Made by a program: the position numbers and the translations under genes. Below, piece after piece: positions 42,608 through 56,177 of a DNA stretch of 64,000 nucleotides. The notes below the pieces were generated by a model that saw only the letters and a list, made by a program, of their open reading frames with translations, was not told where the DNA came from and searched no databases. The stretch covers positions 497,184 through 561,183 of the forward strand of contig NZ_RKQK01000002.1 of assembly GCF_003814915.1 (NCBI RefSeq). The letters are read 5' to 3'. Every line of letters begins with the position of its first letter. The stretch's first letter is position 1. This stretch comes from Pacificibacter maritimus (GTDB lineage: Bacteria > Pseudomonadota > Alphaproteobacteria > Rhodobacterales > Rhodobacteraceae).

Positions 42608-44254
42608 TCATCCACGCCCCACGGGTGTTAGGCTGTCAAAGGCGATACCGGTGGTCTCTTCATATTCCTTCTCGTCCCAGAATCCGATCAGAATGCCCCC
42701 TTCGGCGGCTTTCTTTTGCCGCGCCAAAACGGCTGGAGTCGCTGTGATCCTCGTGTGGTGGCGCGTGGCCCAATCCAGCAGGGCGGCTTCCATCCGCGTG
42801 CGAACGGCGGCGTGCTCTGCTTCTTGGGAGGCTCCCAAATCGCAGAGTTCATGAGGATCAGATTGCAGATCAAACAAAACAGGCCTGAAGCCTTCGCAGC
42901 GGATGTATTTCCAGCGTCCGTCGAAGATCATCGTGGTATGGGCATCTTCCTGCGGCTGGTCCAGCGTGCGCGCCATATCGGACCAATGGTAATCGTGCTG
43001 ACTGATGGCGTAGCGGCGCGAAAATCCGTCTGTGCCGTGCAAAATCGGCGTCAGGTCGCGACCCTCGATCACATGAGGTTTGGGTGCACAGCCAAGCGCG
43101 TTCATAAAGGTCGGCGCAAGGTCGATCATCTCGACCAGTTTGTCTGTGACCAAACCACGGGTGTCATTCGCCTCCTTGCGGGGATCAGCAATAATCAACG
43201 GCACTTTCACTGCCATTTCATGGTAGAAATCCTTATCACCCATGTAGTGATCGCCCATGTAATCGCCGTGATCCGATGTGACCGCGATGATCGTGTTCTC
43301 GCTCAGCCCTGTCTCGTCCATCCATGCAAACAAGCGCCCCAGATTATCGTCGAGCTGTTTGATCAGCCCCATATAGGCGGGGATCACGTGTTTGCGCACG
43401 TCGTCACGCGCGAAACTTTGGCAAACACGCGCTTTGAGGTAGGCCTGCATCAAAGGGTGGTCGGTGTCATGTTCGGCCCCGTCGCGGATCGGGGGCACAA
43501 TATGGCAATCGTCATACATGTCGTGATAGGGCGCGGGCACGATATAAGGCCAATGCGGTTTGATGTAGCTCAGATGGCACATCCAAGGCCGACCGTCTTC
43601 TTTGGCCCCTTTCATAAAGTCGATTGCCCGGTCGGTCATATAGGCCGTCTCGGAGTGCTCTTCGGGGATATTGGCCTCTAGTCGAGAGTGCTTGAGCAAC
43701 CACGCCGAGAGCAGATCACCGTGTTCATTCAGGCCCGAATTTGCGAAATCTTCCCAAGGGTTATCCGAGACAAAGCCCTTGGATACGAGGTAATCATCAT
43801 AAGCCGACCAGTTTTGCCGCGCGCTGTCGGGGTGAAGGCCGTCGTCACGCTCGAACGGCTCGAATCCGCATTCCGACACGCGCACGCCAATTTCGCTTGC
43901 GGGATCAATTCCAAGCCACGCCATTCCTTCCGCATCAGCAGTCATGTGGGTCTTACCCACAAGCACCGCCCGCGCGCCGACTTCGCGCAGATGGTCGCCC
44001 AAGGTCGGTTCGCCCACACGCAGGGGCATCCCGTTCCAAGTTGAACCATGGCTGCGCACATAGCGCCCCGTATAGGCCGACATCCGAGATGGTCCGCAGA
44101 CAGGTGATTGCACATAGGCATTGGTGAAACGCACACCACGGGCGGCCAGTGCGTCGATATTGGGGGTGTGCAAATGCGGGTGACCGTAACAGCTTAGGTA
44201 ATCAAACCGAAGCTGGTCTGCCATAATCCACAAAACGTTTGGTTGATCGGTCAT
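42608..44254 (-). CDS. Sulfatase / phosphonate monoester hydrolase family enzyme
   Basis: Alkaline-phosphatase-superfamily hydrolase of 548 residues. The formylglycine motif CGPSR has Cys53, followed by MSAYTGRY. Metal ligands are seen in MADQLRFD near the N-terminus and in VTSDHGDYMGDH. It has no signal peptide, so it acts in the cytosol on an imported substrate. The closest layout is the arylsulfatase/phosphonate monoester hydrolase group. Its ATG overlaps the stop of the MarR gene by four bases, and a TRAP transporter lies divergently, which suggests uptake and then hydrolysis of a sulfate ester. It needs a formylglycine-generating enzyme from elsewhere. Confidence 0.88.
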   Translation of the reverse strand: MTDQPNVLWIMADQLRFDYLSCYGHPHLHTPNIDALAARGVRFTNAYVQSPVCGPSRMSAYTGRYVRSHGSTWNGMPLRVGEPTLGDHLREVGARAVLVGKTHMTADAEGMAWLGIDPASEIGVRVSECGFEPFERDDGLHPDSARQNWSAYDDYLVSKGFVSDNPWEDFANSGLNEHGDLLSAWLLKHSRLEANIPEEHSETAYMTDRAIDFMKGAKEDGRPWMCHLSYIKPHWPYIVPAPYHDMYDDCHIVPPIRDGAEHDTDHPLMQAYLKARVCQSFARDDVRKHVIPAYMGLIKQLDDNLGRLFAWMDETGLSENTIIAVTSDHGDYMGDHYMGDKDFYHEMAVKVPLIIADPRKEANDTRGLVTDKLVEMIDLAPTFMNALGCAPKPHVIEGRDLTPILHGTDGFSRRYAISQHDYHWSDMARTLDQPQEDAHTTMIFDGRWKYIRCEGFRPVLFDLQSDPHELCDLGASQEAEHAAVRTRMEAALLDWATRHHTRITATPAVLARQKKAAEGGILIGFWDEKEYEETTGIAFDSLTPVGRG

Positions 44255-44772
44255 TGCGTATCCTCTTGCGCCATTTGGCCTGCCAATAAATCTTCTGCAG
44301 GAACCCGCAGAAAGTCTTCCAGCCTATCGAGAAATCCTGCGAATTCGCGGATTTCAGTATCGGAAAAAACCTCTTTCAGGGCCGCACGACGTTTGGCCAT
44401 AACAGGGGCCGCCGTGTCATAGGCAGCGCGCCCTTGCTCAGTTAGCTCAACAATGGTTTGTCGCCCGTCCCGCGCATCCCGCTGCATCGTCACATATCCC
44501 TTTTTGCGCATCTCAGGCAGGGCGCGGCTCAGCAAGGAATGATCCGCCCGCTGAATCGCTGCCAGATCGCGAATTGTCAAAGGGCCTGCTTCGGCAAGAT
44601 CCCAAAGCGTGCGCCATTCAACGACCGACAAACCACCAGCCAACTCAAGAAAGTTTCTGCTTTGAGTGCGTGACGCTGCATAGACGGCTGGCAAGCGTGA
44701 AAAGATATTCAACCCTTCGCGTTCCTTGCGGGAACGGATTTGATTGGCATTGCTCTTAATCTTTGTTGTCAT
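44251..44772 (-). CDS. MarR family transcriptional regulator
   Basis: Winged-helix regulator of 173 residues. The core includes LTIRDLAAIQRADHS (recognition region) and the wing MQRDARDGRQT. The ATG at 44772 has AAGG upstream; longer open frames reach into the intergenic promoter. It is translationally coupled to the sulfatase and divergent from the TRAP receptor gene. It probably represses both directions from the 166-base spacer, where an ATTAT-N7-ATAAT repeat (44822-44840) could be its operator. Ligand unknown. Confidence 0.87.
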   Translation of the reverse strand: MTTKIKSNANQIRSRKEREGLNIFSRLPAVYAASRTQSRNFLELAGGLSVVEWRTLWDLAEAGPLTIRDLAAIQRADHSLLSRALPEMRKKGYVTMQRDARDGRQTIVELTEQGRAAYDTAAPVMAKRRAALKEVFSDTEIREFAGFLDRLEDFLRVPAEDLLAGQMAQEDTQ

Positions 44773-44938
44773 CGCTTTTTGTGCCTTACTTGTTTGGCTG
44801 CTCTCATTGCTTGGTACAAACATTATCGTAAAAATAATACGTGACAAGTCATATATTTTCTGCAAGCCTCACCACAGGATCGGTGTGAGCCGGACCTGCG
44901 CATTTGTGGAGGAATGCGCGGAAATCAGGGAGAACAAC

Positions 44939-45994
44939 ATGATGAAATCAACACTTTTGGGTGTGGTCGTCGCACTTGCGCCGTTTGCTGCATCCGCGCA
45001 GGTCACACTGACGGCCGAGACGACAGCACCGGGCTCGACCCCCCATTACATCGACACCACGCTGGCCGCCGTGCTTGATAGCGCAGGCGTGGCCGCAATG
45101 CAGATTACCGAAGGTGCGACCTTGACCAATTCGGTCCAAGCCGTTGCAGAAGGACGGTTGGACATGGCGCCCGCGCCGCTGATCCTGCCGTTTCTTTTGT
45201 CGCGTGGCATCGGGCCCTATAGTGGCGTTGATCCCGAGGATGGCGCCGCAATCGCCGCCAATCTGCGGGTTTTGTTCTGGAACTCTGGCTCTGCGCAGAT
45301 ATTCGGCTATTACAACAACAATCCAGTCGAAGACATCCGTAATCTGGCCGGCAAACGCATCTGGAACGGGCCACCACGCGGTGCAGCGCTGACCTCGGGC
45401 CGCGCAATGATCCAATTGCTGTCCGGTGGGAAGGAGGGCGAAGACTACGAGGGAATCCAGAACGATTGGCCTGATACGGTATCAAGCATCACGGGCGGCG
45501 GGGCAGATGCATGGACCATACCCGAAGGCCTGCCATCAGGTCGTCAAATCGCGATTGCTGCAGCGGGCGGCACTACCATCCATGACGTTCCGTCTGATCT
45601 TCTTGCGAGCGAATTGGGCCAACAAATTATGGCTGCTCCGGGCCATGCGCCCTATTCGGTTCCGGTTGAAGATTTCCGTGCGGCCTATGCAGGCAATGAT
45701 ATCACCATTGTCACCGACGATGACACCTTCGACAGCTTTGCCACAGCATTCGGCCAGATCGTAAACGTGTCGATGGACGACGAATTGGCCTATCAAATCA
45801 CCAAAGCCTACCTCGAAGGCCAGAAGCGCTTTCTCGAAGGATCGCCACGCGGGCCTTTCTTGATGCTGAGCTTTGGCGATGTTGACGGCACATCCCAAGG
45901 GGCCTGTGGCGCAGTTCAGATCAAGATGCACGAGGGTGCGATCCGCGCCTTTGAAGAGGCAGGTCATAGCGTCGCAGACTGTCTGCGCCCCTAA
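44939..45994 (+). CDS. TAXI family TRAP transporter solute-binding protein
   Basis: Periplasmic receptor of 351 residues with a signal peptide (residues 1-21, ...FAASAQ). It has the TAXI-type ligand fold seen from TAETTAPGSTPHY through the central FWNSGSAQIFGYYNN and GKRIWNGPPRGAA strings. It delivers a small carboxylated compound to the fused membrane subunit encoded next. Two ATG codons overlap at 44939; AGGGAG precedes. A hairpin follows the stop. The ligand is unknown, but the sulfatase across the divide suggests a sulfated organic acid or similar. Confidence 0.85.
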   Translation: MMKSTLLGVVVALAPFAASAQVTLTAETTAPGSTPHYIDTTLAAVLDSAGVAAMQITEGATLTNSVQAVAEGRLDMAPAPLILPFLLSRGIGPYSGVDPEDGAAIAANLRVLFWNSGSAQIFGYYNNNPVEDIRNLAGKRIWNGPPRGAALTSGRAMIQLLSGGKEGEDYEGIQNDWPDTVSSITGGGADAWTIPEGLPSGRQIAIAAAGGTTIHDVPSDLLASELGQQIMAAPGHAPYSVPVEDFRAAYAGNDITIVTDDDTFDSFATAFGQIVNVSMDDELAYQITKAYLEGQKRFLEGSPRGPFLMLSFGDVDGTSQGACGAVQIKMHEGAIRAFEEAGHSVADCLRP

Positions 45995-46006
45995 TCTACA
46001 AGCTCA

Positions 46007-46044
46007 GGAAAGGCCGGCCACCGTTTGGAACGGCTGACCTTTCC
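46007..46044 (+). repeat. Hairpin between the TRAP receptor and permease genes
   Basis: GGAAAGG (46007-46013) pairs with CCTTTCC (46038-46044), with further inner pairs after one mismatch. Position and lack of a T run fit an mRNA hairpin that protects the abundant receptor message from 3' decay. Confidence 0.5.
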
Positions 46045-46096
46045 AACCCGCGCATATCTTCAGTGCTCGACCATTCCTATGGGGAAGAAAAACATC

Positions 46097-48397
46097 ATGA
46101 CTTTGCACCCTGAACGCCCGCCAATGGGCAAGCGTATCGCCGTGTTCCTTGCGTTGATCTTGGTCTTTTTCGGCATGTTGAACACCATGCCAGAAATTTC
46201 TGGCCTGCAAGACTTGGCCCGTGACATCACTGGACAACGATTTTTTAGGGTCTCGAACTTTCCGCCCGAATATTTTTATCCACCGGTATTCTTGCTGATG
46301 ATGACGATCGTTGCGCTAGATGCCAGCGTCTACCGCGCGTGGCGCAAGGACAAACCCCATCTGGCATGGCTCGGGCTTTTGCTTGATGCTGGGTTGCTTT
46401 TGGCGGCGTTTCTGGCGGCGTTCGGTTTTATGGTCGAAATCGACTCCATCTGTCTGATCGATCAGATCAGTGGCGAGCGCGCACGCCTGATCCAAGATGC
46501 CGCCGAACGCTCTGCGGGCGTAATCCCGGGGATGTCCTTTGAGGCAGAAGTCCCGTCGTGTCAGGCGCGTTTCGGGGTCTGGATTATTCCCCTGCTGTTC
46601 ACCATCATCACTCTGTTTTTCCTCTATAACATTCGCGTCTGGGGCCTGCCGCTGGTGGCTGTTGCCAGTGTCGTTGTGCTTTACACGATCGGCACCGCGC
46701 TGATCTGGGTGTTTGATCTGTCTGACAACAACTTCTTGCTCACCAAGCTGGGGGCGGATGGCGGCGATCCTTTGGCCGCCGCGATTCAGAAGGCCACCAA
46801 TGTCTTTGTTACACCCGACGGTTTCATGGGCCGTTTCATGGATATTATCGTCAATCAGGTCTTCCCCTATGTCGTCTTGGGCGCGCTGTTTGGCACCTCT
46901 GCGGGGGGCACGTCTCTGATCAAACTGGCAGTGCGGGTGACGCGCAACTTGCGCGGAGGACCAGCGCACGCGGCCATTGTGTCCTCTGCGATGTTTGGAA
47001 CGATCACAGGAGGGCCTGTGACCAACGTGTTGTCCACAGGGCGGCTGACGATTCCAATGATGCGCCGCAACGGGTTTTCCAAGGAATTTGCTGGTGGTGT
47101 TGAGGCCGCGGCCTCCTCGGGCGGGCAGATCATGCCGCCTGTTATGGGCGTGGCGGCCTTCGTCCTCGTGGCGCTGACGGCGGTACCCTATACGAAAGTC
47201 ATCACCGCTGCCTTTCTGCCTGCAATGTTCTTTTTCTTTTCGATCTTTCTGGCGGTGATTTTCCAAGCGCGGCGCGAAAAGGTCGTGGCGATGCGTGAAG
47301 TCCCCGAGGACCTGATCATGGAGCGTCAGGACTGGCTAAACCTGATCATCATCATCGTGCCGATCCTGACCATCCTCTTCCTGCTTTTGGGCAATAAGGA
47401 CAACATCGGCGGTGGGCTGTTTTCCATGCTTTTGCCTGACGCCGTGATCCGCACGATCACCAATTCTACGGGCGATGCTGTTTCTGCGGGCTGGTGGGCG
47501 GTTGCGATTTTGATACCGCTACTGCTACTCGACCCTGAAACCCGCGCCAAACCGTCCAAAATTCTCGTCTCCCTCGCTGACGGTGGGATTCTGATCTCAA
47601 GACTGTTTTTGTTGTTGTTTGCAGTCTCCATCATCTCGGCGTTTCTGAACGAAAGCGGTCTCACCGGAGAGTTGACCCGCGCCGTGACCTCATGGCTCGA
47701 ACAGGCGCAAGTGATCCGCATTTTTGGCTTTGAACTGCAAGTCGTGGGTGGCGTATATCTGATGCTGGCACTGACCTGCGCGATGTTCTGCGCCATTATG
47801 TTGGGCATGGGCATGCCGACGGTGCCAGCTTATGTGAACGTGGCATTACTGCTTGGGCCGCTGCTGGCAAACCTTGGTGTCAGCTTCTTCACCGCGCATA
47901 TGTTCGTGTTCTACTTCGCCGTGGCCTCTGCGATCACCCCACCTGTCGCCGTCGCTGCCTTTGCCGCCGCATCTATCACGGGTGCGGAGCCGATGCGCAC
48001 TGGTGTCGCCGCGGTTCGTGTGGGCATTGTGATGTTCACGATCCCCTTCATCTTCGCGTGGTATCCCGAACTGTTGCTGATCCCCGAGGCCGTGACGATT
48101 ACTGATGATAGCGGTGCGCGCGCCTTGATCCAAGGCTACAGCGGCGAAGTCGACATGGCCGCATTGGCATGGTTGTCCGCACGTTTGATCCTTGCGCTTT
48201 ACCTGATGGCATCGGCTTTGGCGCGCTTTGATCGAGGCCCTATCCCCTCTTGGGAAGTCGCCTGCCGCCTTGGCCTCGCCGTGTTGATCCTGTGGAAGAC
48301 CGCGCCCGTGATGTGGTTTGGCATCATCGCAGGGTCGGGCATTATTGCGCTGCATATTGTTCTATCAAGGAGACAAGATGCGACCGCCAGAGCTTGA
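46097..48397 (+). CDS. TRAP transporter fused permease subunit (4TM-12TM)
   Basis: Membrane protein of 766 residues joining the small DctQ-like and large DctM-like subunits, as in TAXI-TRAP systems. Many hydrophobic helices are seen, with large-subunit strings FGTITGGPVTNV, EAAASSGGQIMPPVMG, GMGMPTVPAYVNVA and ASAITPPVAVAAFAAA. It moves the substrate inward driven by the sodium or proton gradient. The ATG at 46097 has GGGGAAG upstream; an in-frame ATG at 46079 is the alternative. Its end overlaps the DUF3237 gene by 20 bases. Confidence 0.9.
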   Translation: MTLHPERPPMGKRIAVFLALILVFFGMLNTMPEISGLQDLARDITGQRFFRVSNFPPEYFYPPVFLLMMTIVALDASVYRAWRKDKPHLAWLGLLLDAGLLLAAFLAAFGFMVEIDSICLIDQISGERARLIQDAAERSAGVIPGMSFEAEVPSCQARFGVWIIPLLFTIITLFFLYNIRVWGLPLVAVASVVVLYTIGTALIWVFDLSDNNFLLTKLGADGGDPLAAAIQKATNVFVTPDGFMGRFMDIIVNQVFPYVVLGALFGTSAGGTSLIKLAVRVTRNLRGGPAHAAIVSSAMFGTITGGPVTNVLSTGRLTIPMMRRNGFSKEFAGGVEAAASSGGQIMPPVMGVAAFVLVALTAVPYTKVITAAFLPAMFFFFSIFLAVIFQARREKVVAMREVPEDLIMERQDWLNLIIIIVPILTILFLLLGNKDNIGGGLFSMLLPDAVIRTITNSTGDAVSAGWWAVAILIPLLLLDPETRAKPSKILVSLADGGILISRLFLLLFAVSIISAFLNESGLTGELTRAVTSWLEQAQVIRIFGFELQVVGGVYLMLALTCAMFCAIMLGMGMPTVPAYVNVALLLGPLLANLGVSFFTAHMFVFYFAVASAITPPVAVAAFAAASITGAEPMRTGVAAVRVGIVMFTIPFIFAWYPELLLIPEAVTITDDSGARALIQGYSGEVDMAALAWLSARLILALYLMASALARFDRGPIPSWEVACRLGLAVLILWKTAPVMWFGIIAGSGIIALHIVLSRRQDATARA

Positions 48398-48836
48398 ATT
48401 CGCGTTTCACCTTGAGGTCAGCCTTGGCCCTATCCGCGAAATGGGGGCTGGTCGTGCCGGTCACCGCCGGATCATTCCGATCATTGGCGGTACGGTGAGC
48501 GGCCCCAAGGCATCTGGGCGCATTTTGAACCTTGGGGCCGATTGGCAGACGATCTTCGCAGATCAGACGGCAGAGCTTGATACGCGTTATGCATTTGAGA
48601 CCGATGACGGGGCTTTGATCGAAGTCTGCAACTACGGTTTTCGCCACGGCCCGCCTGCGGTTATCGCCGCCATAGCGCGGGGCGAAGATGTGGCCCATGA
48701 CAGTTATTTTATGCGCACCCATGCCCGTCTAGAAACCGGTGATCCGCGCTATGACTGGGTCAATCGAACGCTGTTTGTCGGAACTGGTGAGCGCAAGGAG
48801 GCCAGCGTGATCATGGATCTATACGCGCTCACCTGA
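48378..48836 (+). CDS. DUF3237 domain protein
   Basis: Protein of 152 residues that matches DUF3237 over its full length, with IPIIGGTVSG, GADWQ and the late TLFVGTGERK. The family forms a small beta barrel of unknown function and is often found with transporters and enzymes for aromatic or other organic compounds. AAGGAGACAAG before the ATG is a strong ribosome site, inside the end of the TRAP permease gene, so it is co-expressed. It may process or bind the imported compound; this is inference. Confidence 0.8.
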   Translation: MRPPELEFAFHLEVSLGPIREMGAGRAGHRRIIPIIGGTVSGPKASGRILNLGADWQTIFADQTAELDTRYAFETDDGALIEVCNYGFRHGPPAVIAAIARGEDVAHDSYFMRTHARLETGDPRYDWVNRTLFVGTGERKEASVIMDLYALT

Positions 48837-48905: not shown

Positions 48906-49436
48906 ATGGCGCTCAATCAGCAGATTCAACTTGAACCTAAAGGCCTAGAACTAGGTGAACATTGGCGAACCGGCGTAGATGGGGAGCACGCAATTGGTCA
49001 TCCCTTGCCGAGAGCACTCATTGACCTTTGAGCCCCCATCAAGGGCCCCGCCTTTTTCAACGGCTCCGTGCGCATCAAAGTGATGGAACGCACGCCCTTG
49101 ACGGACAAAGAGGGTCGTCAAAAGGTTCTGACGCTGTTTGGTTTGACCTCTGGCAAGGACGGTATCGTCGCGCAAGACACCAACTATCGCAGGCGTTTTG
49201 CAGGGCGATGTATACCATTTGCCGATGATGGTTTGGGCAATCTTTTCGTGATTGATACGGTGACGGGGCAGATTAAATTCTGGCATCACAAATGCCAAGA
49301 CGGGGAAACCAATCCAAAGGCGTTGGCCCTTGTTGCAAAAGACTTTGATGCGTTCCTATCCAATTTGGATCTCTTCAAGGAAGAGCACAGTCCAGCGCTG
49401 TTGCAAGGCATCAAAAATGTGCGGTTAGACTTTTGA
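48906..49436 (+). pseudogene. SMI1/KNR4 (SUKH) family immunity-like gene, interrupted
   Basis: One frame runs from the ATG at 48906 to the stop at 49434-49436 but is broken by a TGA at 49029-49031. Before it the product ends LPRALIDL; after it the frame resumes with GPAFFNG and later PFADDGLGNLFVIDTVTGQIKFW. This is the central and C-terminal core of a SUKH domain. Intact SUKH proteins have a few residues including an Asn-Gly-Gly turn right at the break, so a small deletion creating the TGA is likely. Restart at 49068 would give a 122-residue truncated product. SUKH proteins are immunity factors for polymorphic toxins. Confidence 0.6.
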
Positions 49437-49733: not shown

Positions 49734-49910
49734 ATGTCCGTACCCCCTGACAAGATTCCTGCCTATTGCGCGCGCCATGGACTGGAAGAAAACAGAGATT
49801 ATGTTTTAAAAGACTTTGCCGTCCGCGCGCGTGGTACCTTTGAGCAAGCTGCCGAATGGATCATAGCGCAGGCCAGATTGGCACGATCTCAAATGGGCCC
49901 TAGCCAATGA
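49734..49910 (+). CDS. Very small hypothetical protein upstream of the DUF1851 gene
   Basis: A 58-residue frame from the ATG at 49734 (a GTG at 49728 would add two residues). The product looks like a small alpha/beta domain with a C-terminal helix (FEQAAEWIIAQARLARSQ). Its TGA overlaps the ATG of the next gene, which supports real, coupled translation. No family recognised. Confidence 0.5.
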   Translation: MSVPPDKIPAYCARHGLEENRDYVLKDFAVRARGTFEQAAEWIIAQARLARSQMGPSQ

Positions 49911-50602
49911 CATACATTAGCGAAATCAAAGGCCGCAGCGGTAAAGATCATATCGATAGCGTGCTGAAACGGTCAGGGCCTCTCATCGGTGCATCCGTCG
50001 TGCCCGAGGCCACGCTGGAGGCTTGGACTGGGGTCCTGCCTGACATCTTGATCGATTTTTGGCGCAATCACGGTCTCGGGGCGCTTCAGGGCGGGGTGAT
50101 GCGCCTGTGCGTGCCGGATGAGTTTGATGGCCTTTTATCCGAGGTTTTTCAGGCAGACAAAGATTTTTCACACAAAGACTGCCATGTTATTGGCTACGGT
50201 CCCTTTGGAAATCTGATTGTCTGGAGCGCGCGCCACTGGATCGTCAGAATAGATCTGCTGCATGGGCGCGTCTCCGCATCTGGGCTGACTGACCCCAGCA
50301 AAAAGCATAATGAGAATGCATCGATTGTCGCCCATCTGTTGGGCCATCAGCCCGACAGTCTGGATGTGGTGGACGACGACGGTAAAAAGATGTTCAAACC
50401 TGCCGTCAGCGCGCTTGGTCCACTGAAGACGGGTCAGGCATTCGGTTTTTTCCCAGCCTTGGCAATGGGCGGTGCGCCGCAGATCGCAAACCTCAAGATC
50501 GTGCCAGCGCTGGAACATTTTGTAGTCCTCGCACAGCTTCAAAAATTCCATCTGGTTGACTATCTTGGCAGCGCGCCAGGCGCCCTAAGAACAATCGGGT
50601 AA
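49907..50602 (+). CDS. GAD-like / DUF1851 domain protein (Tdi1-type immunity protein)
   Basis: Protein of 231 residues. The N-terminal half has the GAD-like fold strings (LPDILIDFWRNHGLG, FGNLIVWSARHW). The C-terminal half is DUF1851 with LGPLKTGQAFGFFPALAMGG and LEHFVVLAQL near the end. This two-domain plan is that of Tdi-type immunity proteins guarding against type VI secreted DNases. No toxin or secretion gene is in the window, so it would be an orphan immunity gene. The ATG overlaps the previous stop (ATGA). Confidence 0.8.
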   Translation: MTYISEIKGRSGKDHIDSVLKRSGPLIGASVVPEATLEAWTGVLPDILIDFWRNHGLGALQGGVMRLCVPDEFDGLLSEVFQADKDFSHKDCHVIGYGPFGNLIVWSARHWIVRIDLLHGRVSASGLTDPSKKHNENASIVAHLLGHQPDSLDVVDDDGKKMFKPAVSALGPLKTGQAFGFFPALAMGGAPQIANLKIVPALEHFVVLAQLQKFHLVDYLGSAPGALRTIG

Positions 50603-50903
50603 CATCGCTAAGCATTTGGTCCGTATCCAGTTTGGTACCCCTGCGATCCTATCAAAGACTGCACCAAAACTGGTACCTTTTCAGACTTTTGTACTTGTCT
50701 TGCAGTAATGGATTTGGGTGAAGGACAGTCACCAATGAAGATCGCCGCGGCGGTCAAACTGGGCACCTTGCTGCCCTTCTCAGTTTTGCAGGACGTAAAG
50801 GTGATTGGCCCAGATCCCCCTGTTACTCTGACCCAAAGTTGACGTGCAGCGATTGATTGCCTCCGCAATGCAGCGCCAAATACGGAAGTTGCTCAAAGTA
50901 TAT
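50603..50903. other. Intergenic stretch between the immunity-like genes and imuA
   Basis: About 300 bases without a supported gene. A 44-codon plus-strand frame (50708-50842) and an 86-codon minus-strand frame (50608-50868) both read through the same bases. Neither matches a family I know nor has a convincing ribosome site. KpnI-like GGTACC sequences occur twice with part-inverted flanks, perhaps a mobile-element scar. Confidence 0.3.
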
Positions 50904-50918
50904 GTTCTCCGTATGTTC
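50904..50918 (+). promoter_or_regulatory. LexA (SOS) box of the imuA-imuB-dnaE2 cassette
   Basis: GTTC-N7-GTTC, the alphaproteobacterial LexA operator, is exact here (GTTC at 50904 and 50915). It ends six bases before the imuA ATG at 50925, so LexA would block transcription start until DNA damage. Confidence 0.88.
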
Positions 50919-50924
50919 TCATCA

Positions 50925-51476
50925 ATGCGAGTCGATCTTCGAAATATCTTTCCTCTCCGCCCCGCCAGGGTTCATGAGGTTTGCGGGCCCACTGCGATAA
51001 GCTTTGCGGCCATGGCAGCATCAGGTCCGTGCCTATGGATCCGTGAGGGCTGGCTTGGCGACACGATCACGCCTCAGGGGCTCCTGCGCTATCTTGATCC
51101 CACGCAGCTTCTTCTGGCGCGCCCTAAGGATCAGATCGATGCCTTGGCCGTGGCCGAGGAGGCATTGAAAGACGGTGTGCTCCCCTATGTTATCCTCGAA
51201 ATCACCCGCCCACTCGATCTGCGCGAGGGGCGGCGGCTGCAACTGGCGGCCAAGGCGGGCGGCACGACTGGGCTCTGTATCATCCCTGAAGGCATGGGCT
51301 CCAACGCGACCCACACCCGCTGGCGGGCTACGCCGAGCTTTGATGCCGCAGAGGAAGACTCGACTCTCATGCGCTGGGAGATTATTAAGAACAAATCAGG
51401 AACAAATGGAGCCTGGAATGTTCGATGGGATCAGAAAGCGCGTCGTGTGCATGTGGTTTCCGCGGTTGCCGAGTGA
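50925..51476 (+). CDS. imuA: ImuA mutagenesis accessory protein
   Basis: Protein of 183 residues, a diverged RecA/SulA-like factor that works with ImuB and DnaE2 in damage-induced mutagenesis. It begins near VDLRNIFPLRPARVHEVCGP, and the typical body follows (LDPTQLLLARPKDQIDALAVAEEAL, cut here into short strings such as RPKDQIDAL). The ATG at 50925 is chosen because the LexA box covers 50904-50918, making the longer open frame implausible. An ATG at 50913 lies in the box. Its end overlaps imuB. Confidence 0.83.
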   Translation: MRVDLRNIFPLRPARVHEVCGPTAISFAAMAASGPCLWIREGWLGDTITPQGLLRYLDPTQLLLARPKDQIDALAVAEEALKDGVLPYVILEITRPLDLREGRRLQLAAKAGGTTGLCIIPEGMGSNATHTRWRATPSFDAAEEDSTLMRWEIIKNKSGTNGAWNVRWDQKARRVHVVSAVAE

Positions 51477-52872
51477 CCGCGTTCTGCGTGCGCGTCCCGT
51501 GTCCGGCCCCTTTGCAATCACCCACAAATCCAACAACACCGAACGAATTTATTGCCTCAACAGCCCTGCAGAGCGCGCGGGGCTGACCCGCGGGATGAGC
51601 TTTGCCGATGCCCGCGCTTTTTGCCCCGACCTGATCAGCCAACCCGCGCGTCCTGATCTTGATGCCCACTTCCTCGCGATCCTGCGTCGGTGGGCGACTC
51701 GCTATTGTCCCTGGGTCGGATGGGATGGCGCGGATGGGCTCGTGCTCGATGTGACCGGATCGACCCATTTGTGGGGCGGCGAAGAGGCGATGTGCGATGA
51801 CATGCGGGCGCGGGCGGCGCGGGCAGGGCTTTCGGTCGGCCTTGGCCTCGCCGACACGCGCGGTGCTGCTTGGGCCTTTGCCCATTACGGAGGCGCGGGC
51901 AAGACACTCGAACACCTTCCGGTTGCTGCGCTGCGCATCAATACCCAAGTGGTCACCGGACTACAGCGCCTCGGTCTGCGCACCATCGGCGATCTCTCCA
52001 CTGCGGCTCGCGCGCCCTTGGCACGCCGTTTCGGGCCAGAGATGATGCTGCGTCTCGACCAAGCCATGGGCAGGGTGCCCGAACCCGTTACACCCGAAAA
52101 AGAACCACCGCGTTTCGTCAACCGCATGAGTTTGCCTGAACCGATAGGCCTGACCGAGGACGTCATGGGCATCACCGAACGCCTACTGGTGCCGCTCTGC
52201 GACAAGCTCAACCGCTTCGAGATGGGCGCGCGCAAACTCTCCCTCACGCTGCGCCGTGTCGATCAGAGCAGCCGAGAGGTCGAGTTGCGCCTTGCCGCAC
52301 CCATGCGCGATCCTCATCGCATTCTACCGTTGTTCGAGCGCGGTGTGGGCGAGGTAGACGCTGGCTTTGGTATTGACCAGATCCGCCTCAAAGCCACGCA
52401 GGTCGAACCGCTCGCGGTGCAACAGATCGGCAGCGTCCAAGCCTCCCCCGACCGTCTCGCCGATCTGATAACTCGCATCGGCACGCGTATCGGCCTCGAC
52501 AACGTGCAACGCTATCTTCCTGCCGACAGCCACATTCCGGCACGCGCTTTTCGCATCGTCCCAGCCGCATACACTCGCCCCGACAGCAGCTGGTCCACGT
52601 GCCGTCCACGCCCGCTGCGCCTGTTCCCGCCCGAACCAATTGCGGGCAGAGGTCATACCCCGCCCGACCGTTTTCGCTGGCGACGCATGACGCTGACCAC
52701 GGGGCGCGCCATCGGCCCCGAACGCATCGCACCCGAATGGTGGCTCGAAGGTGATACATGGCGCACGGGGTTGCGCGATTACTGGAAAGTGGACACGCGC
52801 GAAGGCCGCCGCCTGTGGCTCTTTTATACGCCACAAAATCCCAGCTGGTGCGTGGAGGGGGAATTCGCATGA
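51418..52872 (+). CDS. imuB: ImuB, catalytically inactive Y-family polymerase-like adaptor
   Basis: Protein of 484 residues related to DinB polymerases that bridges DnaE2 and the beta clamp. The Y-family body is present (WFPRLPSD, SFADARAFCPDL, helix-hairpin-helix region LGLRTIGDLSTAAR). The catalytic acidic motif is replaced (DVTGSTHLWGGE instead of the Ser-Asp-Glu type), as in all ImuB. A clamp-binding-like LRLFPP stretch lies near residue 400. The ATG at 51418 overlaps imuA by about 60 bases, with GGAG before it. The stop overlaps the dnaE2 start. Confidence 0.9.
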   Translation: MFDGIRKRVVCMWFPRLPSDRVLRARPVSGPFAITHKSNNTERIYCLNSPAERAGLTRGMSFADARAFCPDLISQPARPDLDAHFLAILRRWATRYCPWVGWDGADGLVLDVTGSTHLWGGEEAMCDDMRARAARAGLSVGLGLADTRGAAWAFAHYGGAGKTLEHLPVAALRINTQVVTGLQRLGLRTIGDLSTAARAPLARRFGPEMMLRLDQAMGRVPEPVTPEKEPPRFVNRMSLPEPIGLTEDVMGITERLLVPLCDKLNRFEMGARKLSLTLRRVDQSSREVELRLAAPMRDPHRILPLFERGVGEVDAGFGIDQIRLKATQVEPLAVQQIGSVQASPDRLADLITRIGTRIGLDNVQRYLPADSHIPARAFRIVPAAYTRPDSSWSTCRPRPLRLFPPEPIAGRGHTPPDRFRWRRMTLTTGRAIGPERIAPEWWLEGDTWRTGLRDYWKVDTREGRRLWLFYTPQNPSWCVEGEFA

Positions 52873-55800
52873 GCTACGCCGAACTTTGTGTCACCTCTAA
52901 CTTCACTTTTCTCACCGGCGCCTCACATCCCGAAGAACTGGTGTTGCGCGCCGCAGAGCTGGGTCTTGAGGCGCTGGCGATCACCGATCGCAACACACTC
53001 GCCGGAGTCGTGCGCGCATGGTCGGCGCTCAAGACGCTCCGCGAAGAGGCGGCCGAAAGCCTGCGTATCCGCCCCTCGCACCAAATTGATTCCTGTTCGC
53101 GTCAAGAGATCGGGTCGCCCAAAGACCTGCCTACGTCACAGGCCTCGAAACTGCCGAGGCTCATCGTCGGTAGCCGTCTCGTGCTACGCGATTGTCCTGT
53201 GGAATGGCTGGCGCTGCCCACTGACCGCGCCGCTTACGAGCGCCTTTCGCGGCTGCTTACACAGGGCAAACGGCGCGCAGGCAAGGCAGAATGCCATCTC
53301 GATCTGGCCGATCTCGAGGCGGGCTGTCTGGGCATGATCCTCATTGCGATGCCGCCACGTAATTTACACCATGCGCGCGCACCGCTTGAGCGGCTCCGCC
53401 ATCGCTTCCCCGGCCATGTATTTTTGGGAGCAGCTCCCTGTTATGACGGTTCTGATCAAGGCTGGTTCGACCGCTGCTCGGCGCTTGCGCAGCGCTGTGC
53501 AACGCCCATGGTGGCGGTCGGGGACGTGCTTATGCACCACGGGCGCAGGCGCAGGCTTACCGATGTGCTGACCTGCCTACGCGAGGGGCTGACCATTGAC
53601 CAAATCGGCACCCGCGCGCTACCCAATGCTGAACGCCGCCTCAAGGGGGGCGCCGACATGGCGCGGCTTTATCGCAACCATCCGGCTGCGCTGCGGCGCA
53701 CTGTGGAGATTGCCGCACGCTGCGGGTTTGATTTATCCGAGCTGAGCTACGAATACCCCGACGAGATGTCCGACGGCGAAAGCCCGCAAGCCCGTCTCGA
53801 ACGCCTTGCCCGCGAAGGGATCAAACACCGCTATCCCCACGGAGCGGCCCAGCGGGTGCATGATCTCATGCGCAAAGAATTGAGCCTCGTAGGGGAACTG
53901 GGCTACGCGGCCTATTTCCTCACCGTTCATGACATCGTGGCGCAGGCTCGATCGCGCGGCATCCTCTGTCAGGGGCGTGGCTCGGCCGCCAATTCCATCC
54001 TTTGTTACCTCCTTGGCATCACCGATGTGTCGCCCGACATGATCGGCATGGTGTTCGAGCGCTTCATCTCCCGTCATCGTGGCGAACCGCCCGACATCGA
54101 CGTGGATTTCGAACATGAGCGCCGCGAAGAGGTGATCCAGTGGATCTACGAAAAATATGGACGTCACCGCGCGGGGCTTTGCGCCACCGTCATCCATTTC
54201 CGCACCCGCGCCGCCATTCGCGAGGTGGGCAAGGTCATGGGGTTATCGCAAGACCTCACGGCGCGGCTCTCAGGCGACATCTGGGGGCAGAGCAACTCTG
54301 GAGCGGATATGGAGCGGGTAAAAGAGTTGGGCCTCAATCCCAAGGACCAGCGACTGGCGCAGACTATTAAACTCATCGGCGAGATCATCGGCTTTCCGCG
54401 CCACCTCTCACAGCATGTAGGAGGCTTCATCATCACGCGCGGGCGGCTCGACGATCTTTGTCCCATTGAGAATGCCGCCATGGAGGGGCGCACCTGTATA
54501 GAATGGGACAAAGACGATATCGACGCTTTGGGCATTCTCAAGATCGATATCCTGAGCCTTGGAATGCTTACATGCCTGCGCAAAAGCTTCGATCTTCTGG
54601 AGGCGCATGAGGGGGTGCGGCGGACCCTCGATACCGTGCCCCAAGAGGACCGCGCGACCTATGACATGCTCACCCGCGCCGATGCGGTGGGCGTGTTTCA
54701 GGTCGAAAGCCGCGCCCAGATGAACTTCCTTCCGCGGATGCGCCCCTCGACTTTTTACGATCTGGTGATCGAGGTCGCCATCGTCCGCCCCGGCCCCATT
54801 CAAGGCGGGATGGTCAAACCCTATATCCGGCGGCGGCAGGGGCTTGAGGCTCCCGAACCCTTTGGTCCTGCGCTCCAAGAGGTTACGCGCAAAACGCTTG
54901 GGGTGCCGCTTTTCCAAGAGCAGGCGATGCAGATCGCAGTTGTCGGGGCGGGCTATTCGGCGGAAGAGGCTGACAAGCTTCGGCGCTCTCTCGCCTCCTT
55001 TCGGCGCATGGGCACCATCGGCGAGCATCGCGAGCGGTTCGTGCGCGGCATGATGCGCAATGGCTATTCACATGAGATCGCGCAGGCCTGTTTCGGTCAG
55101 ATTGAGGGTTTTGCCGATTACGGGTTCCCCGAAAGCCACGCAGCCGCCTTTGCCATGCTGACCTATGTGTCGTCTTGGCTCAAATGCCACCACCCAGCGG
55201 TGTTTGCCTGTGCTCTTCTAAATTCCCAACCGATGGGCTTTTACGCCCCAGCGCAGATCGTTCGGGACGTGCGCGAACACGGTGTCGAGGTGCGGCCAGT
55301 TTGCGTGAACCACTCGGGCTGGGACAACCTCTTGGAGCGGCGGGCCGATGGCGCGTTAGCGTTGCGGCTCGGGTTTCGCCAAATCAAAGGCTTTCGCGAA
55401 GAGGACGCGGCCTGGATCACAGCGGCGCGCGGCAATGGCTATCAAGACCCAGAAAGCGTCTGGCTCAGGGCGGGCGTCGCGCCCACCGTGCTCGAACGGT
55501 TAGCCGAGGCTGACGCGTTCATCAGCATGGGGCTCACGCGGCGCAATGCCTTGTGGCAGGTGCGCGCGATCCTTGCCCCCAAGCCTTTGCCGCTCTTTTC
55601 CGATCCGATGGACGGCGAAGGCATCCGCGAGGCTGAGGTGTGCCTACCGTCCATGCATATGGGCGAGGAAGTTGTGGAGGATTACGTCTCCACCCGCCTC
55701 ACTCTACGCGCCCATCCGATGGAGCTTTTGCGACCATCAATCCCGGGGCTCACGCCCCATGACCGACTGCCAACGGCGCCCCTAGCGCGCATCACTGTCT

Positions 55801-56177
55801 GCGGTCTCGTCATAACTCGCCAGCGCCCTGGCACGGCCTCAGGCGTGATTTTTCTGACACTTGAGGATGAAACCGGCGTCTCCAATGTGGTCGTCTGGCC
55901 TAAGGTCTACGAACGGTTCCGCCGCACGGTAATGGGCGGGCGGTTATTGCGTGTCAGCGGGCGGCTGGAACGCGAAGGCATCGTCGTTCATCTCATCGCC
56001 GATCATATCGACGATCTGTCGCACAGGCTTTCAGACCTTGGCCACCCGATGGAGGAGGCCGTGGGCATCACTCAGCCCCAAGCGGACGACGCCCCCCGAC
56101 CGCCGCGCTACCCGCCCCGCGCCATGCACCCGCGCGATCAGGCAAAACGCCTGTTTCCGAGCCGCGATTTCCATTGA
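52869..56177 (+). CDS. dnaE2: Error-prone DNA polymerase DnaE2 (ImuC)
   Basis: C-family replicative-type polymerase of 1102 residues that performs translesion synthesis with ImuA and ImuB. The N-terminal PHP domain begins CVTSNFTFLTGASHPEEL. The polymerase active-site acidic motif lies in PPDIDVDFEHERR, and a C-terminal OB fold (GLVITRQRPGTASG, FLTLEDETG) follows. A short polar insertion around residues 95-115 is not usual. The ATG overlaps the imuB TGA. The three genes form one SOS-controlled transcript and are visibly richer in GC than the surrounding genome. Confidence 0.95.
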   Translation: MSYAELCVTSNFTFLTGASHPEELVLRAAELGLEALAITDRNTLAGVVRAWSALKTLREEAAESLRIRPSHQIDSCSRQEIGSPKDLPTSQASKLPRLIVGSRLVLRDCPVEWLALPTDRAAYERLSRLLTQGKRRAGKAECHLDLADLEAGCLGMILIAMPPRNLHHARAPLERLRHRFPGHVFLGAAPCYDGSDQGWFDRCSALAQRCATPMVAVGDVLMHHGRRRRLTDVLTCLREGLTIDQIGTRALPNAERRLKGGADMARLYRNHPAALRRTVEIAARCGFDLSELSYEYPDEMSDGESPQARLERLAREGIKHRYPHGAAQRVHDLMRKELSLVGELGYAAYFLTVHDIVAQARSRGILCQGRGSAANSILCYLLGITDVSPDMIGMVFERFISRHRGEPPDIDVDFEHERREEVIQWIYEKYGRHRAGLCATVIHFRTRAAIREVGKVMGLSQDLTARLSGDIWGQSNSGADMERVKELGLNPKDQRLAQTIKLIGEIIGFPRHLSQHVGGFIITRGRLDDLCPIENAAMEGRTCIEWDKDDIDALGILKIDILSLGMLTCLRKSFDLLEAHEGVRRTLDTVPQEDRATYDMLTRADAVGVFQVESRAQMNFLPRMRPSTFYDLVIEVAIVRPGPIQGGMVKPYIRRRQGLEAPEPFGPALQEVTRKTLGVPLFQEQAMQIAVVGAGYSAEEADKLRRSLASFRRMGTIGEHRERFVRGMMRNGYSHEIAQACFGQIEGFADYGFPESHAAAFAMLTYVSSWLKCHHPAVFACALLNSQPMGFYAPAQIVRDVREHGVEVRPVCVNHSGWDNLLERRADGALALRLGFRQIKGFREEDAAWITAARGNGYQDPESVWLRAGVAPTVLERLAEADAFISMGLTRRNALWQVRAILAPKPLPLFSDPMDGEGIREAEVCLPSMHMGEEVVEDYVSTRLTLRAHPMELLRPSIPGLTPHDRLPTAPLARITVCGLVITRQRPGTASGVIFLTLEDETGVSNVVVWPKVYERFRRTVMGGRLLRVSGRLEREGIVVHLIADHIDDLSHRLSDLGHPMEEAVGITQPQADDAPRPPRYPPRAMHPRDQAKRLFPSRDFH

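Follow-up and report, generated by a model that had tools for sequence, protein, structure and literature searches.

A candidate aryl-sulfate utilisation module in Pacificibacter maritimus and its relationship to hydroxycinnamate catabolism

Background

The closest described enzymes to the sulfatase considered here are SpAS1 and SpAS2 of Silicibacter pomeroyi, the latter of which we take to be structure 4upl. SpAS1 is structure 4UPI (PMC5488252). In this branch the residues K101 and H103 mark arylsulfatases, whereas phosphonate monoester hydrolases (PMHs) have Tyr and Thr or Asp at the same places (PMC5488252). The known sulfatase maturation systems are FGE and anSME, as reviewed in PMC3920027. 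TAXI-TRAP transporters, such as that of the Vibrio cholerae glutamate-binding protein (PMC11574862), consist of an NMT1_3 binding protein and a fused TRAP permease.

The best comparison for the catabolic genes discussed below is the cou/tar p-coumarate cluster of Rhodopseudomonas palustris, with TarPQM, CouPSTU, CouAB and CouR. TarPQM are encoded by RPA1782-1784 and CouR by RPA1794 (PMC3610893); the available part of this account mentions no sulfatase or TAXI-TRAP. By these numbers the DUF3237 gene RPA1785, which adjoins TarPQM in numbering, falls inside the cou/tar locus. The couAB genes are presumably RPA1786-1787. Other members of the DUF3237 family come from sphingomonads. PinX belongs to this family and has PhcF and PhcG as relatives (PMC12607616), and all three are described as decarboxylases of phenolic dimers in phenylpropanoid-dimer catabolism (PMC12607616, PMC12997858).

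Zosteric acid is the p-(sulphooxy)cinnamic acid of Zostera marina (PMC12138599). Among the texts accessible to an open-access literature search, we found nothing on the use of zosteric acid by bacteria, nor on arylsulfatase genes in hydroxycinnamate clusters. The acesulfame system was considered as a precedent and set aside, as the accessible part of its description has a metallo-beta-lactamase-type hydrolase and an ABC importer instead.

Organisation of the locus

The window is a stretch of 64,000 nucleotides from the genome of Pacificibacter maritimus, below called the host. The original prediction described two divergent sets of genes, and its gene order, orientation and coordinates were confirmed for all five. 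On the minus strand, the gene of an arylsulfatase-type hydrolase of 548 amino acids (42608-44254; PF00884, Sulfatase, 159.5 bits in a Pfam search, above the gathering score) overlaps by 4 bp the gene of a MarR-family regulator of 173 amino acids (44251-44772). The regulator has the MarR winged-helix domain, with Pfam scores of 39.7 bits for PF12802 and 36.9 bits for PF01047, both over the cut-off. On the plus strand lie the genes of a TAXI-like TRAP solute-binding protein of 351 amino acids (44939-45994) and a fused TRAP permease of 766 amino acids (46097-48397). The permease scores 332.4 bits with TIGR02123, over the cut-off of 320.65, and 190.3 bits with DctM (PF06808), over the gathering score. 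Behind the importer, and overlapping the permease gene by 20 bp, is the gene of a DUF3237 protein of 152 amino acids (48378-48836, plus strand; PF11578, 165.8 bits, above the gathering score).

The binding protein scores 56.4 bits with PF16868 (NMT1_3), above the gathering score, and its start looks by eye like a signal peptide. The binding protein and fused permease are thus of the same kinds as in TAXI-TRAP transporters. However, the TIGR02122 score is 38.5 bits, below the cut-off of 84.35, hence the name TAXI-like, and sequence search found no solved relative from which a ligand could be read.

The MarR gene probably starts with the ATG at 44772 rather than the TTG at 44865, since the latter would place a conserved operator, described below, inside the gene. 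With this start the intergenic spacer is 44773-44938.

Further along, the window contains a SUKH-like fragment (49068-49436) and a GAD-like protein with a T6SS Tdi1 immunity C-terminal domain (49907-50602). In the region 50844-56177, an open reading frame with an impB/mucB/samB (IMS) domain (51175-52872) stands between two others. The only domain seen here is IMS, and we presume that the region may be an imuA-imuB-dnaE2 cassette.

Conservation of the four-gene core

Scanning named genomes yielded 69 loci; six were too distant and were set aside, two were added from genome searches, and 65 were analysed. The close relatives were picked by short peptide patterns, so that the loci are a non-random sample; the carrier genomes are related, the counts below are not independent and all p-values are rough.

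In 59 orthologue loci the upstream sequence extends over 5 kb or more (six shorter ones being left out); the MarR, TAXI and TRAP genes are all kept beside the sulfatase gene in 40 of them. The MarR gene alone is kept in two (L072 and L078) and none of them in 17. For one of these 17, L064, the unit is present elsewhere in the genome, on a different contig (L132). Because 40 of 59 loci keep these genes together, the four-gene core arrangement is not due to chance. Beyond the four genes, the neighbours vary between most loci, as expected of a module moving as a block. The Rhizobiales-type loci L081, L082 and L084 have neither TAXI-TRAP genes nor a hydroxycinnamate cluster nearby.

The original prediction tied the genes on the two sides of the spacer to a single substrate, with no established role for DUF3237, and proposed linkage in relatives as a test. 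The core came through: the MarR gene, the importer and the sulfatase, which by eye has no signal peptide, make up one unit that relatives retain as a whole and that shares a single operator. The DUF3237 gene, far less often kept in place, failed the test.

Two further arrangements were observed. In Hoeflea halophila (L078) the MarR gene, the sulfatase gene and the operator (with one mismatch) are retained, and nearby DctP- and DctM-type TRAP genes replace TAXI-TRAP. A second sulfatase-TAXI-TRAP unit (L075:3-4154) lies on the same contig as the orthologous one.

Candidate operator

The spacer contains a single conserved palindromic operator, reported here as new: CGTGACAAGTCATATA, with the core TGAC-AA-GTCA, at 44840-44855 (plus strand), which we consider the putative binding site of MarR. 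The pattern TGACAAGTCAYATA is present in all 41 aligned spacers, with the full 16-base form in 39; outside the operator the spacers are mostly variable. At most one mismatch being allowed, the 16-base operator has 39 sites in 38 of the 51 carrier genomes, compared with two for the reversed control pattern. All site-bearing genomes except G248 (37 of 38) have exactly one site, as does the host in a whole-genome scan.

The sites track the linked MarR gene. By locus content (L132 being used for G274), the gene is carried by 39 of the 51 genomes, and 38 of these 39 have an operator site; the remaining one, G279 (L071), has a weaker site. The operator is absent from all 12 carrier genomes without a sulfatase-linked MarR gene. 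It is thus likely that MarR acts locally, on this divergent pair alone. A scan of the spacer for sigma-70-type promoters gave one weak site (44811-44838, plus strand, 9 of 12 positions; 0.3 sites expected), ending 2 bp before the operator; a more extensive overlap between the operator and the two promoters was read by eye only.

We also considered whether this MarR is a CouR-type hydroxycinnamoyl-CoA sensor. This is not supported: its closest solved relative is not CouR, which does not occur among its 29 PDB matches at E <= 0.001. Control of the hydroxycinnamate cluster by the operator of the module was rejected: the host cluster region (L142) contains no site with up to three mismatches, and thus the module and the host cluster are not co-regulated by the MarR of the module.

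Sulfatase signature and maturation

The window enzyme has the motif C53-G-P-S-R, which fits the nucleophile motif C-x-P/S-S-R, together with K101-T-H103, as in type I arylsulfatases of the AS branch of the alkaline phosphatase superfamily. CGPSR and K101/H103 are conserved in 64 of 65 rows, the window enzyme included and L174 being placed among the controls; the remaining row, L092, lacks the N-terminus. The enzyme belongs to the same branch as SpAS1 and SpAS2, with a near full-length alignment and the same K101/H103 and numbering. However, it falls in a separate clade, whose nearest paralogues are 54-63% identical, and has its own MarR and operator.

The original prediction called the enzyme formylglycine sulfatase-like. 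This label is an assumption, as neither FGE nor anSME was found in the host. The host genome (99.94% complete) has no match to PF03781, the FGE profile. Some match exists in 35 of the 51 carrier genomes and none in 16, but short and weak matches are included, and it is unsafe to consider them all true FGEs. Searches for anSME in 18 genomes (the 16 without PF03781 and two others) gave no match over the cut-off; matches below it occurred in nine of the 18, the host having none. The host (G000) encodes two type I sulfatases with cysteine motifs, yet has no FGE or anSME match; the motif of the second is C-A-P-G-R. If the absence of both known maturases in the host is correct, the question of how some bacteria activate such sulfatases could be addressed here directly.

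Association with the hydroxycinnamate cluster

In loci of the Marivita type, the sulfatase gene stands among genes of DctPQM, a MarR regulator, a short-chain dehydrogenase (SDR), an acyl-CoA synthetase (the CoA ligase), an enoyl-CoA hydratase and an acyl-CoA dehydrogenase; 4-hydroxybenzoate hydroxylase, PcaQ and DUF3237 genes are also found around it. The gene kinds are the same as those of the cou/tar cluster. In the clusters of relatives, PobA and PcaQ exceed curated cut-offs (627.9 over 538.7 and 322.6 over 303.8). The best match of the cluster DctP protein is 7nr2 (8e-116), which we take to be an aromatic-acid binding protein. The CoA ligase and hydratase are generic by best match. The three best PDB matches of the cluster MarR are all CouR: 6c28, which is so named, and 3FM5 and 5CYV (PMC4737184).

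The host has its own cluster at C2:70000-89900, about 0.45 Mb from the window, with pcaB, pcaG, pcaH, pcaD and pobA. The best match of its MarR is again CouR, and its PcaQ is just below the cut-off (297.9 versus 303.8).

Linkage was defined as at least three of seven cluster markers in loci flanked by 12 kb or more of sequence. By this definition the sulfatase gene is in or beside the cluster in 11 of 54 orthologue loci, compared with 0 of 20 paralogue controls (Fisher p 0.023). The linkage label requires four changes on a quick sulfatase tree, which has long branches and an outgroup that does not form one side of a branch. The CoA-ligase gene occurs in 9 of the 11 genomes of the family with a sulfatase orthologue, compared with 79 of 237 without (Fisher p 0.0018; 0.0043 without the genome of the window), at most five candidates being scored per genome. 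At E <= 1e-60 the ligase is found in 44 of the 51 carrier genomes and is missing from seven.

We propose, with confidence evenly divided for and against, that the locus is a self-contained aryl-sulfate utilisation module whose likely substrate is a sulfated hydroxycinnamate, the DUF3237 gene being a displaced member of the cluster. The TAXI-type TRAP transporter would import a small aryl sulfate, probably carrying a carboxylate as well, and the cytosolic arylsulfatase would cleave the sulfate ester. MarR would repress both divergent promoters from the one operator and be released as the substrate or product accumulates. The freed phenol would enter the p-hydroxycinnamate-to-protocatechuate cluster of the host, with its CoA ligase, enoyl-CoA hydratase, acyl-CoA dehydrogenase, SDR, PobA and pca genes. 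If so, the likeliest substrate is a sulfated hydroxycinnamate such as zosteric acid or a close relative. The proposal draws on the linkage and the conserved operator of the core, the arylsulfatase residues, the association with the cluster and its CoA ligase, the CouR-like identity of the cluster MarR and the fold of DUF3237. Several findings weigh against it: most loci lack cluster linkage, seven carriers lack the ligase and 16 lack DUF3237, the module MarR is unlike CouR and its operator is missing from the host cluster region, the Rhizobiales-type loci have neither importer nor cluster, and neither known maturase was found in the host.

A different possibility is a general scavenger that obtains sulfur by desulfating a wide range of aryl sulfates, and whose occasional placement in the cluster reflects a shared habitat rather than one pathway. 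This is consistent with the 43 of 54 loci that have no cluster linkage. Moreover, among the 20 paralogous arylsulfatases (54-63% identity), a TAXI-like gene adjoins the sulfatase in nine and a DctP/DctM pair in two, so that sulfatases of this branch commonly come with an importer of their own. On the other hand, cluster linkage appears at several separate places of the tree, the CoA ligase co-occurs with the sulfatase orthologue, and the DUF3237 gene is found in either place, cluster or TRAP side. Neither does a dedicated MarR with one genomic site fit well with general scavenging, which we regard as a serious but minority prospect.

DUF3237 genes

The predicted fold of the window DUF3237 protein (pLDDT 93.6) matches that of RPA1785 with a Z score of 24.1 over 152 residues and an rmsd of 1.7. 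Below the DUF3237 structures, the model resembles Diels-Alderases, allene oxide cyclases and dirigent proteins (Z about 9-11). The likeness to PinX, PhcF and PhcG is by description, through the DUF3237 family label.

We considered DUF3237 as a member of the core unit and rejected this. Of the 40 core loci, six have it at the end of the permease gene, facing that gene in one (L076) and broken in three (L033, L034, L037). At E <= 1e-15 it is present in 35 of the 51 carrier genomes and absent from 16. The 30 best copies show where it resides: 19 have at least one cluster marker in 1.5 kb flanks, although in one of these (L127) the only marker is a MarR at 39%; five are on the TRAP side, and six have neither. 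For three of these six (L134, L139, L140), the cluster was not found over about 19-20 kb around the gene. Thus DUF3237 belongs mainly to the p-hydroxycinnamate cluster (CouR-like MarR, CoA ligase, TRAP genes, PobA, pca genes) and is found only occasionally behind TRAP genes, contrary to the unit as first described. The window copy, the only one found in the host genome, appears to belong to hydroxycinnamate catabolism and not to the sulfatase unit.

An intact DUF3237 gene behind or facing the TRAP permease occurs in the host and in G274, G267, G283 and G284, and in all five it is the sole genomic copy. The genomes of all three broken TRAP-side copies have an intact copy in the cluster. The association of sole-copy status with intactness has a Fisher p of 0.018, based on eight related genomes. 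The cluster regions of the host, G284, G267 and G274 lack DUF3237; that of G267 is divergent, in G274 the region breaks off about 1.1 kb beyond the last marker, and the full cluster of G283 was not located. The best tree and its bootstraps require the TRAP-side copies to have arisen twice; the starred branches alone force one origin.

It could be argued that the gene behind the TRAP genes is a hitch-hiker with no role. This concerns only the DUF3237 part and is compatible with any of the other readings. Both the three broken copies and the absence of the gene behind TRAP in most loci speak for it. However, a hitch-hiker would not be expected to be intact just where it is the sole copy and broken just where another is intact, nor to have arrived twice, as on the best tree, and we consider it unlikely. 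Under the displaced-member reading, a cluster without DUF3237, a barrel family whose characterised members are decarboxylases of phenolic lignin dimers, would draw on the copy behind the TRAP genes.

Substrate and implications

The module probably acts on a sulfated hydroxycinnamate, with zosteric acid (4-sulfooxycinnamate) as the named candidate. A more specific version is a dedicated Rhodobacterales route for sulfated hydroxycinnamates: intact import, cytosolic desulfation, the CoA-dependent pathway, DUF3237 as a step of that pathway not assigned before, and a sulfatase matured by neither known system. We offer this complete route tentatively, as something that may well fail in one of its parts.

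The substrate may instead be another sulfated phenolic carboxylate, such as 4-sulfooxybenzoate, a sulfated phenylpropanoate or a lignan- or flavonoid-type sulfate, with DUF3237 acting on the desulfated product. Indeed, PinX, PhcF and PhcG act on phenolic dimers (PMC12607616, PMC12997858), and PobA and the pca genes belong to the same cluster. However, the CouR-like regulator, together with the CoA ligase, hydratase and DctP-type importer, points to hydroxycinnamates, even with the generic best matches of ligase and hydratase, and this makes such substrates rather improbable. Finally, a phosphonate monoester or phosphodiester hydrolase unit, an option left open by the original prediction, is very improbable: the superfamily is the same and, once 4upi and 4upl are set aside, the closest solved structures are those of PMHs, but the enzyme has Lys and His of arylsulfatases at the discriminating positions instead of the Tyr and Thr/Asp of PMHs.

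The sulfated-hydroxycinnamate reading provides a substrate class and an operator, both testable, for an arylsulfatase clade and for a TAXI-type transporter that is uncharacterised, and it places DUF3237 of Rhodobacterales in a pathway. If it is true, such bacteria would exploit the sulfated phenolics that seagrasses and algae contain by taking them up whole.
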